From positions 1-40,293 of the forward strand of contig QHVJ01000026.1 of assembly GCA_003222275.1 (NCBI GenBank): DNA of 40,293 bases, given 5' to 3'. Both the position numbers and the translations under genes were made by a program. The notes beneath the pieces were generated by a model. The model saw only the letters and a program-made list of their open reading frames with translations. It was not told the DNA's origin and did no database searches. This stretch comes from Acidobacteriota bacterium (GTDB lineage: Bacteria; Acidobacteriota; Vicinamibacteria; Fen-336). Position 1 is the first letter of the stretch. The number at the start of each line of letters is the position of its first letter. This document shows, piece after piece, positions 12,269-15,987 of the stretch.

Positions 12269-12987
12269 CCGTCCACGACCGTCATCGGCGCGATTTCCTG
12301 CTCAAGGCGAGCACGCTCGGGGCGGCCGTCGCCTGGGCGCCGAGCGTCATCGCCGCGCCGGCCGCCAAGTCGCGCTCGCGCCGCCGGAACGAGAAAGAGG
12401 ACGTCACGCCAGCGGAGGACCTCATGCGGGAGCACGGCGTGCTCAACCGCATCCTGCTCGTCTACGAGGAGTCCATCCGGCGGCTCGAGGCGGGCGTCGA
12501 GCTGCCGCCGGAAGCCGTGAGCGGCGCCGCGGGCATCGTCCGGCGCTTCGTCGAGGACTACCACGAAAAGCTCGAAGAGGAGCACCTCTTCCCGCGCTTC
12601 GTGAAGGCGGCGACGCTCGTGGACCTGGTCGAGGTGCTGCGCGCGCAGCACGAGGCGGGCCGCCGCCTGACCGCCGACATCCTGGGCCTGGCGACCACTA
12701 CCGCCACCACCACCGCCGGCGATGCGCGCACGCGCCAGACCCTCGTGAGCCGCCTGCGGAGCTTCGTCCGGATGTACCGGCCTCACGAGGCTCGGGAGGA
12801 CACCGTGCTCTTCCCGGCTCTGCACCGCCTGATCCCGGAGCGCCAGTACCGGGCGCTCGGAGACAGGTTCGAGCGGCGGGAGCACGAGCTGTTCGGCGAG
12901 CGCGGCTTCGAGGGCGTAGTGGACGAGGTCGCCGCGATCGAGAAGAGCCTCGGGATCTACGACCTCGCCCAGTTCACGTCCGCCTGA
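12265..12987 (+). CDS. Tat-exported hemerythrin-domain protein
   Basis: A 240-residue protein whose ATG overlaps the stop of the M28 gene by 4 bp. The N-terminus HRRDFLLKASTLGAAVAW is a twin-arginine signal. The following four-helix hemerythrin domain shows the di-iron ligand pattern: His in MREHG (57), HxxxE in DYHEKLEEEH (100 and 104, with 107), His in RAQHEAG (129) and HxxxED in RPHEAREDTVLFP (174-179). Bacterial hemerythrins of this type bind O2, NO or act in iron/oxidative stress. Tat export implies the cofactor is inserted in the cytoplasm. Its 3' end overlaps the readthrough end of the DedA-rhodanese gene by 31 bp. Confidence 0.88.
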   Translation: MTVHDRHRRDFLLKASTLGAAVAWAPSVIAAPAAKSRSRRRNEKEDVTPAEDLMREHGVLNRILLVYEESIRRLEAGVELPPEAVSGAAGIVRRFVEDYHEKLEEEHLFPRFVKAATLVDLVEVLRAQHEAGRRLTADILGLATTTATTTAGDARTRQTLVSRLRSFVRMYRPHEAREDTVLFPALHRLIPERQYRALGDRFERREHELFGERGFEGVVDEVAAIEKSLGIYDLAQFTSA

Positions 12988-13922
12988 GGCAGGTTCTCGA
13001 CCGGGAACCCGCGCCGGCGCCACTCCTCGAGCCCGCCGGCGAGCGGCCGGACGCGCGTGATCCCTCGCCTCCGCAGCCGGAGCGCCACCCGGGCGCTCGT
13101 CGCTTCGTTGGGTCAGGTGCAGTAGAGGATGACGTCCCGGTCGCGGGGGATCTCGTGGTGGCGCTCGTCCAGCTCGTCGGGCGTGAGCACGATCGCCCCC
13201 GGCAACGCGGCGGCGTCCTGCGTGCGCTCGAGCGCGTTGCGCAGGTCCACCACGACTACCTCCTCCTGCCCGGCCTGCATCAGGGCCAGCAGCTCGTCGG
13301 GGGCGATGCGGGCGATCTCGAGGTCGCGCAGGAAGCGCCGCCGCTGGTCGAGCTTCCAGATGAGGTACAGCGCGAGGCCGCCCACGACCGCCGCGACCAC
13401 CCGCACCCCGAGGACCCTCACCGCCTCCGCGACCCGCTCGAGCTGCCGGCTGAAGACGTAGCCCAGCAGGAGGAACGTCGTCGTCCAGATCAGGGCCCCC
13501 GCGCCGTCCCACAGGAGGAAGCGGGCGAGGCTCACCCGGGCGAGCCCGGCCACGGGCGGCGCGACCGTGCTCAGGCCGGGGACGAACTTCGCGTAGAGCA
13601 GCGTCCGGCTTCCCGCGCGCGCGAACACGTTCTCGGTGCGGCGCACGCACGAGTCCGGCTCGAGGGAGATCCGGCACACGAGCTTCAGGATCGAGCTGCC
13701 GTAGCTGCGGCCGAGACGGTACCACACGATGTCGGCGACCAGGCAAGCGGCCACCGCCACCAGGATCGAGTGGGTGAGCGAGAACCTGCCCATGCCGACG
13801 AGCGCGCCCACGGCGAGGAGGACGGGCACCGCCGGTATCGGCAGCCCGGCCTGCTCGACGAGGACCATCCCGAAGAGGAAGAGGTAGCCGTGCCGGAGAA
13901 GGAACGGAACGAGCCCGCTCAC
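12957..13922 (-). CDS. DedA-rhodanese fusion with in-frame TGA; candidate selenoprotein
   Basis: Reading starts at GTG 13922 (GTGA overlap with the upstream gene). The first 269 codons give a DedA/VTT membrane domain (residues 1-200: GYLFLFGMVLVEQAGLPIP, ARAGSRTLLYAKFVPGLSTVAPPVAG) and most of a rhodanese domain (VVVDLRNALERTQDAAALPGA), reaching YCT at the active-site loop. The next codon is TGA (13115-13113). The same frame then runs 51 codons to TAG (12959-12957): PNEATSARVALRLRRRG, then VRPLAGGLEEWRRRGFPVE. That is the normal rhodanese end. Homologs, as I recall, have Cys at the TGA position (YC-x-C-PNEA). A SECIS-like hairpin follows. It could instead be a nonsense mutation, giving a 269-residue truncated protein. 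Full readthrough product: 321 residues. Confidence 0.75.
13080..13098 (-). promoter_or_regulatory. Candidate bacterial SECIS element
   Basis: In mRNA sense the 14 nt after the UGA are followed by GAGCGCC (13098-13092), loop CGGGU (13091-13087) and GGCGCUC (13086-13080), a perfect 7-bp stem. The apical loop begins 21 nt after the UGA, is 5 nt long and has G in its second position. AGC/GCU can add 3 bp below an internal loop. These values lie within the published bacterial SECIS consensus as I know it (16-37 nt spacing, 3-14 nt loop, G in the first two loop positions). GC-rich coding sequence forms hairpins by chance, so this is supportive, not proof. Confidence 0.5.
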
Positions 13923-15133
13923 GCCCCGGCGACCTGCAACTCCGCTTCCAGCCGCTCGAGGAAGTATCCGACGTCGGTGACGAGCCCGACGGCGTGCAGC
14001 GTCCCGCGGTTCGAGAGCTTCACCGGCACCGACTCCGTGATGTCCACGCACACCGTCTTCACGCGGGCCGGAAGCAGGTTGCCGACGGCGATCGAGTGGA
14101 GGGCGGAGGCGAGCATCAGGCACATGCCGGCGCCCTCGAGGGCCGCGACGTAGGCCTTCTGCGCCTCGACCACGTCGGTGATGACGTCCTTCAGCGGCCC
14201 GTCGTCGCGGATCGACCCCGCGAGGACCACGCGGATGCCCCGCCGCACCGCCTCGTACATCACGCCCGAGGTGGCGAGGCCCGACTCCACGGCGGCCCGG
14301 ATCCCCCCCGCACGGTTCACCGCGTTGATGGCGTAGAGGTGATTGCGGCTCCCGCCTTCGACCGCGCGCCCGCTCATCTGGCATACGCCGAGGCTCGTCT
14401 TCAGGATCGACTTCTCCAGATCGTGGGTGGCGAAGGCGTTGCCGGTGAGGATCACGTCGACCCAGCCCTCCCGCACCAGGCGCGCGAGGGCCGCGTCGCC
14501 TCCGGAGTGCACCACCGCGGGACCGGCCACTACCACGATCTTGCCGCCCGCCTTCCGCGTCTTGGCCATCTCGCGGGCGGTGCCGGCGATCACGATGCCC
14601 TTGTTGGTCTCCGCGGAGACGTCGTTGGACATGAAGCCGAAGACCGAGAAGTCGCGGCTCCTCTCCGGCGGGCGCGCCCGGATGCCGGGGCCGCGCAGCG
14701 CGACCGGCTCGCCCTTCTTCACCTGGCCCTGCTTGACGCAGCGTGGCCCGCCGCCGCGCAGGACGAGGGCGGAGTCCATCTTCTGGTCCGCCGCCGCTTG
14801 CCATTTGCCGTCGACGCGCACGAAGGTGTCGAAGTTGGTCGTGGAGTAGAAATCGTCGGGCAGGATGCCGTCCGCCTCCGCGGGCGCGAATCGCGCGTCG
14901 GCGACCTCGGCCGAGGCGCCCAGGTAGTTGAGGCGCTCCAGGATGCGGTCGAGGATCTCGGGCGCGGGAGCCGACACCGACAATCGCGCGAACGAAGGCT
15001 GCTGGTTGGTCGTCCCCACCCGGAACTCCAGGACCTCGAACCCACCCCCCTCCTCGACCACGTGGTTGAACACCCGGCGGAGGATGTCCGAATCGATGAG
15101 GTGGCCTTCCATCGTGACCGTCTCGTGAACCAT
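13919..15133 (-). CDS. TIGR00300-family (LOR/SDH, ornithine cyclodeaminase-like) protein
   Basis: A 404-residue protein. The N-terminal domain (EGHLIDSDILRRVFNHVVEEGG ... FEVLEFRVG) and the C-terminal domain with repeated Gly motifs (VVVAGPAVVHSGG, ILTGNAFATHDLE, NAVNRAGGIRAAV, VVLAGSIRDDGPL) match the TIGR00300 group, which includes the archaeal-type ornithine cyclodeaminase and the C-terminal part of cyanobacterial AgrE. It probably converts ornithine to proline, or an analogous reaction, using NAD. GGAG lies 7 bp before the ATG at 15133. Its TGA overlaps the GTG of the DedA-rhodanese gene. P5C dehydrogenase, elsewhere in this window, acts on the same pathway. Confidence 0.78.
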   Translation of the reverse strand: MVHETVTMEGHLIDSDILRRVFNHVVEEGGGFEVLEFRVGTTNQQPSFARLSVSAPAPEILDRILERLNYLGASAEVADARFAPAEADGILPDDFYSTTNFDTFVRVDGKWQAAADQKMDSALVLRGGGPRCVKQGQVKKGEPVALRGPGIRARPPERSRDFSVFGFMSNDVSAETNKGIVIAGTAREMAKTRKAGGKIVVVAGPAVVHSGGDAALARLVREGWVDVILTGNAFATHDLEKSILKTSLGVCQMSGRAVEGGSRNHLYAINAVNRAGGIRAAVESGLATSGVMYEAVRRGIRVVLAGSIRDDGPLKDVITDVVEAQKAYVAALEGAGMCLMLASALHSIAVGNLLPARVKTVCVDITESVPVKLSNRGTLHAVGLVTDVGYFLERLEAELQVAGA

Positions 15134-15340: not shown

Positions 15341-15895
15341 TCAGAGTCTAGGTAGGGTCAGCTTCTTCTGGGCCTGGTACTTGCCCTTCTTGTCGGCGTA
15401 GGAGGTCTCGCACTCCTCGTCGCTCTCGAAGAAGAGGACCTGGGCGATGCCCTCGTTGGCGTAGATCTTCGCCGGGAGGGGCGTGGTGTTCGAGACCTCG
15501 AGGGTGACGATGCCCTCCCACTCCGGCTCGAACGGCGTGACGTTGACGATGATCCCGCAGCGCGCGTAGGTCGATTTCCCAAGACAAATCGTGAGCACGT
15601 TCCGCGGAATGCGGAAGTACTCCACGGTCTGCGCAAGGGCGAAGGAGTTGGGCGGGATGATACAGACGTCCCCCTTGAAGTCTACGAAGGAACGCGGATC
15701 GAAGTTCTTGGGATCGACGATGGTCGAGTTGATGTTGGTGAAGATCTTGAACTCGTCGGCGATGCGGACGTCGTAGCCGTAGGACGACAGGCCATAGGAG
15801 ATGACGCCCTCCCGCACCTGCTTGTCCGTGAACGGCTCGATCATCCGCTGATCCCGGGCCATGCGGCGGATCCAGCGGTCGGACTTGATGGACAT
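15341..15895 (-). CDS. dcd: dCTP deaminase
   Basis: A 184-residue enzyme that deaminates dCTP to dUTP for thymidylate synthesis. The substrate-binding and catalytic segments are clear: [13 protein letters not shown] near the start, [23 protein letters not shown] with the catalytic Glu in the middle, and [11 protein letters not shown] at the end. The type is the approximately 188-residue Dcd form common in Proteobacteria and Acidobacteria. I start at ATG 15895 (MSIKSDRWI); an upstream start at 15952 would add 19 residues foreign to the family. The protein is cytoplasmic and forms trimers in known relatives. Confidence 0.95.
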
Positions 15896-15987
15896 GGGGG
15901 CAAGGATTCCACGGGCGGCCCCGCGACTGCAACCGAGTGTGCCGGGCCTCACGTGGAGCCTTGACGTGTCGCCGCGGCGGGCTCAGC

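Follow-up and report, generated by a model that had tools for sequence, protein, structure and literature searches.

Does the TGA that lies inside a DedA-rhodanese gene of an Acidobacteriota bacterium end the protein, or is it read as selenocysteine (Sec), and if the latter, what might Sec contribute to a rhodanese fused to a membrane domain? The gene lies in what we call the window, i.e. the whole stretch of DNA analysed (40,293 nucleotides, contig QHVJ01000026.1), and an initial annotation made from the letters alone had proposed it as a candidate selenoprotein gene.

Reading frame and gene neighbourhood

12957..13922, minus strand: predicted gene for a DedA(VTT)-rhodanese selenoprotein of 321 residues, Sec270 included, GTG start 13922-13920, TAG stop 12959-12957
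13113..13115, minus strand: TGA codon 270, predicted to be read as selenocysteine, in a C-T-U motif; 34 homologous genes have TGA here and 59 have TGT/TGC
13919..15133, minus strand: upstream gene, nickel-pincer-nucleotide-dependent ornithine cyclodeaminase (TIGR00300, above cut-off), with a 4-bp overlap

Translation of the minus strand from 13922 to 12957 gave GTG...YCT-TGA-PNEATSARVALRL...TAG, 321 codons in which codon 270 (13115-13113) is the single internal TGA. It is followed by 51 sense codons, and the gene contains no other stop and no frameshift, exactly as the initial annotation had read it. The GTG start lies within the TGA stop of the ornithine cyclodeaminase gene, so that the two genes overlap by 4 bp at 13919-13922. 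While this overlap stands, the suggested link between the two genes does not extend beyond the genus among the loci compared, since the ornithine cyclodeaminase gene adjoins the selenoprotein gene only in a genome of the same genus (hereafter G001), and we dropped it as a functional partner. At the other end, the selenoprotein gene (ending at 12957) shares a tail-to-tail overlap of 31 bp (window 12957-12987) with a plus-strand hemerythrin-domain ORF that ends at 12987. The window also holds a dCTP deaminase gene (15341-15952), which is uninterrupted, unlike that of G001 (L138:1922-3712, G001:C52), where about 1.2 kb of in-frame, intein-like sequence (CVTGDTKVLD ... FVANDIFVHN-S) splits the gene.

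TGA and Cys codons among homologues

Homologues were collected across the phylum Acidobacteriota and from named genomes. The equivalent of codon 270 is TGA in the window gene and 33 others, which together come from 32 Acidobacteriota genomes. Among the 60 other full-length homologues whose codon was read, 59 have TGT or TGC; the search patterns for the named genomes included YCTCPNEA, which biases that part of the sample toward Cys forms. The sole full-length homologue with neither has YCSS, with TCC at this position. Every close homologue has Cys or Sec in the TGA column, which supports the Cys/Sec family pair that had been suspected.

If the TGA were a genuine stop, or the gene a pseudogene, the product would end at residue 269 and the remainder would be decaying. 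TGA is indeed a normal stop in this organism, where it terminates the upstream gene, but the frames of all 34 TGA genes are open through the remainder of the rhodanese match, and G001, whose selenoprotein gene is the nearest homologue at 79% identity, keeps TGA at the homologous codon. Over the 39 codons past the TGA, 36 residues are identical between the two genomes, with 12 synonymous and only 3 non-synonymous codon differences, which indicates that the region is under purifying selection as protein. Moreover, in the AlphaFold2 model described below, a product ending at residue 269 would lack the closing helices and strand of the rhodanese domain. We regard a true stop as very improbable. 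A sequencing or assembly error hiding TGC or TGT, for which the fragmented assembly (628 contigs) and the Cys of many relatives might speak, is more improbable still, practically to be dismissed, because TGA recurs in 33 other genes, that of G001 among them, always with the core of the hairpin described below. Taken together, the recurrence of TGA and the purifying selection dispose of read error and pseudogene for the family. Sister genomes, which had been named as the place where additional stops or frameshifts might come to light, share the TGA and have no further stops.

On a tree of 77 proteins, no fewer than seven changes between Sec and Cys are needed (16.4 on average after shuffling), and only two of them are forced by well-supported branches. 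From the sequences it is likely that Sec and Cys have been exchanged repeatedly in the DedA-rhodanese family, the number of exchanges being uncertain.

Two kinds of locus turned up in addition to these genes. In a genome of the same family that has selA, a Cys form (L188, G009:C8:1500-2600) lies in two frames with a one-base overlap near residue 239, which is a frameshift or a sequence error. Three rhodanese-domain matches retrieved through the rhodanese part alone (L142, at G001:C17:14722-15075, L089 and L103) read YCT-TGA or FCA-TGA, carry the same hairpin, and on these features are candidates for further CxU selenoproteins.

A putative SECIS hairpin

13080..13098, minus strand: hairpin GAGCGCC-CGGGU-GGCGCUC, a putative bacterial SECIS with a 7-bp stem and a 5-nt loop that starts 21 nt past the UGA

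The bacterial SECIS (bSECIS) model allows a loop of 3-9 nt on a stem of 4-16 bp, with a G in the first two loop positions and a spacing of 16-37 nt (PMC13188914). With its 7-bp stem, the loop CGGGU and a spacing of 21 nt, the hairpin here falls within these limits. The 19-nt hairpin folds at -12.1 kcal/mol, and none of 200 shuffles was as good. The 70-nt stretch past the TGA, taken as a whole, folds no better than its shuffles (z 0.06), and the SECIS claim thus rests on the conserved 19-nt hairpin.

That conservation follows the TGA. All 34 TGA genes have the innermost three pairs and a G as the second loop base at a fixed distance, the loop always starting 21 nt past the UGA, and the 4-bp core with the loop G occurs in 32 of the 34, as against 3 of 59 Cys genes. 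The contrast persists among genes that encode the same A-[RS]-[VAL]-A peptide, where the 4-bp core and loop G are found in 31/33 Sec genes versus 3/15 Cys genes. Here the Ala codon is GCC in all 33 TGA genes but in 6 of the 15 Cys genes, and the codon two past that Ala has G as its third base in 33/33 versus 3/15. Such a difference in codon choice between genes for the same peptide means that the hairpin is unexplained by the coding sequence alone. In one genome (G005), moreover, a change on one side of the stem is compensated on the other, GUGCC/GGCAC versus GCGCC/GGCGC. Separately, a Cys (TGT) DedA-rhodanese gene in a Terriglobia MAG (L047:3001-3933) retains UGCC-CGGGU-GGCA at the SECIS position, possibly a fossil SECIS left by a Sec-to-Cys change.

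Selenium machinery and its co-occurrence with the TGA form

The genome of the window encodes selA (540 bits), selB (344 bits) and selD (345 bits), all above their curated cut-offs, and its selD has an in-frame TGA of its own in SCAG-U-ASKLG; SelD enzymes with Sec in their N-terminal loop are known (PMC13188914). The search for a full selABCD set, which had been put forward as a check, was therefore answered for these three genes, while tRNA-Sec is missing from the assembly and present in G001 (72.8 bits). In the 628 contigs the six RF01852 matches are tRNA-Ser or tRNA-Leu according to ARAGORN, and there is no tRNA-Sec beside selA, selB or selD. However, the region beside the tRNA-Sec of G001 matches contig C581 of the window's genome (85% over 168 nt), and this contig stops 36 nt beyond the match, about 240 nt short of the expected tRNA-Sec start. 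To judge from this alignment, the tRNA-Sec gene most likely sits in an assembly gap. Elsewhere in the window's genome (G000:C582:24224-24247, L127), 24 bp with no surrounding tRNA exactly repeat the 3' end of the G001 tRNA-Sec gene. Perhaps an element that integrates at tRNA-Sec left them as the remnant of an attachment site, and such an element could also account for the contig break there.

Across 72 genomes with the fusion, selA was found above cut-off in 31 of the 32 that have the TGA form and in 4 of the 40 that do not (Fisher p = 8e-15, uncorrected for phylogeny); 36 of these 40 belong to one family, f23, and are non-independent, and genomes whose loci were not fetched were classed by a match without internal stop, the residue itself being unread. 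Within f23 the split is 7/7 TGA genomes with selA versus 1/36 non-TGA genomes. The one TGA genome in which no selA was found above cut-off is G001, despite its TGA and tRNA-Sec, and we put this down to an incomplete assembly.

Could the TGA instead be read as an ordinary amino acid such as Trp or Gly, or by general readthrough? The open frame would allow it, and the case for Sec decoding is itself built on sequence comparison. Nevertheless, the residue that alternates with the TGA is Cys, not Trp or Gly, TGA does terminate the upstream gene, and selA, selB and selD are present, with selA tracking the TGA form. This leaves very little room for such a reading, and we hold with very high confidence, on comparative grounds, that UGA 270 is decoded as selenocysteine.

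The rhodanese and DedA domains

13014..13301, minus strand: rhodanese domain, residues 208-303 (Pfam Rhodanese, PF00581, 42 bits against a gathering score of 22.2)
13119..13121, minus strand: codon of C268, the residue that aligns with the catalytic Cys in solved rhodaneses and is invariant among aligned homologues
13458..13838, minus strand: DedA/VTT membrane domain, residues 29-155 (Pfam VTT_dom, 58.8 bits; helices in the AlphaFold2 model)

The Pfam Rhodanese match spans the TGA uninterrupted. An AlphaFold2 model built from 31 homologues, of good overall confidence (pLDDT 85.6, pTM 0.74), has a rhodanese part that matches PDB rhodaneses, the best being 3tp9 at 1.6 A. In the alignment, C268 occupies the position of the catalytic Cys of the solved rhodaneses 3tp9 and 5ve3, and the active-site loop is C268-T-U270. 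Because C268 takes the catalytic position, Sec270, two residues further, is not the canonical catalytic residue. The two Pfam matches and this loop agree with the description first given of a membrane protein with a Cys-x-Sec rhodanese. The accompanying idea that the TGA replaces a redox-active Cys needs amending: it is the second Cys, two residues on, that is replaced, while the canonical catalytic one is kept.

The membrane domain shares 27-29% identity with E. coli YqjA and DedA, members of the undecaprenyl-phosphate flippases of COG0586. Four residues are reported to be essential in these flippases, Glu39, Asp51, Arg130 and Arg136 in YghB numbering (PMC10127716), of which only Glu39 is kept here, as E23; Asp51 falls in a gap, Arg130 is replaced by K112 and Arg136 by S118. 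With three of the four altered or gapped, undecaprenyl-phosphate flippase activity of the DedA-rhodanese protein appears doubtful, and we did not adopt this function.

Proposed chemistry

In the pathway that we envision, the DedA/VTT domain would sit in the cytoplasmic membrane with the rhodanese domain at its C-terminus, and SelB and tRNA-Sec would insert Sec at UGA 270, guided by the hairpin just downstream. Cys268 would take up sulfane sulfur as a persulfide, or become oxidised, and Sec270 would be the fast-resolving residue or the nucleophile, forming a transient Cys-Sec bond that a thiol system re-reduces. The rhodanese domain would then be a membrane-tethered persulfide or thiol reductase/transferase. 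This sulfur/redox chemistry of Cys268 and Sec270, drawn by analogy, is a tentative proposal, quite conceivable but short of an even bet.

It is also conceivable that the protein is a selenoprotein whose rhodanese domain serves selenium or sulfur trafficking, i.e. delivers selenium or sulfur species and is not a redox or persulfide enzyme. A rhodanese domain works with selenophosphate in YbbB, according to a reference in PMC1794560, and the reference list of PMC10127716 includes a study linking a DedA protein to selenite resistance (Ledgham 2005). However, the Cys-form fusion is retained in many genomes without selA, so its job would be independent of selenocysteine use, and we consider a trafficking role unlikely. 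That the Cys form occurs in genomes mostly without selA argues, at the level of sequence, that the DedA-rhodanese reaction belongs to general thiol chemistry, which Sec makes better, and is not part of selenium metabolism as such. One could go further and picture the family as a membrane-tethered selenoenzyme that repeatedly swaps Sec and Cys as the Sec trait is gained or lost, its Cys-x-Sec loop acting on a substrate presented or moved by the membrane domain. We offer this fuller picture as speculation and consider it unlikely.

Relation to known selenoproteins and significance

The rhodanese part on its own has known relatives. Several new NCBIfam selenoproteins were reportedly described by Haft and Tolstoy in 2025. 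CxU rhodanese selenoproteins are already listed under NCBIfam NF041203 (PMC13188914, PMC9312934), named rhodanese_LYCAU, a "rhodanese-related (seleno)protein" that corresponds to rhodanese-like protein form 3, CxU (PMC13188914). NF041203 is the top NCBIfam match for the rhodanese part, shares with it the C-x-U/C-x-C loop, and matches 31 of 31 aligned DedA-rhodanese proteins. The protein here differs in being joined to a membrane domain, while the model, with 126 positions, covers roughly the rhodanese domain alone, and it scores 83.7 bits, below the curated cut-off of 115. DedA-rhodanese fusions are known as well, for example P. aeruginosa PA1209 (PMC12893004) and others in PMC10127716. They have the same domain order (PF09335 + PF00581, DedA N-terminal) but were described as sulfurtransferase fusions, with Sec unmentioned (PMC10127716, PMC12893004). 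The TsoB rhodanese/DsbD fusion-like selenoprotein (NF045694) is another Sec-bearing rhodanese fused to a further domain, but its partner is different, its Sec motif is UxxxxU, and the protein here scores 20 bits against its cut-off of 805. Our literature search, of incomplete coverage, found no description of a DedA selenoprotein or Sec-containing DedA fusion, although an earlier one may exist. What appears to be new, then, is Sec in the DedA-fused form.

The bacterial selenoproteome would thereby gain a membrane-fused member. Gene callers that take TGA as a stop would truncate the window gene and its 33 relatives. The finding also gives a handle on the DedA-rhodanese fusions, whose purpose has been called unclear in the DedA literature (PMC10127716), and a Cys-x-Sec loop acting on a substrate that the membrane domain presents or moves would, if true, be chemistry that no DedA protein is known to perform. 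Finally, an exchange of Sec and Cys that follows selA within one phylum amounts to a natural experiment on what Sec gains over Cys at a single site.
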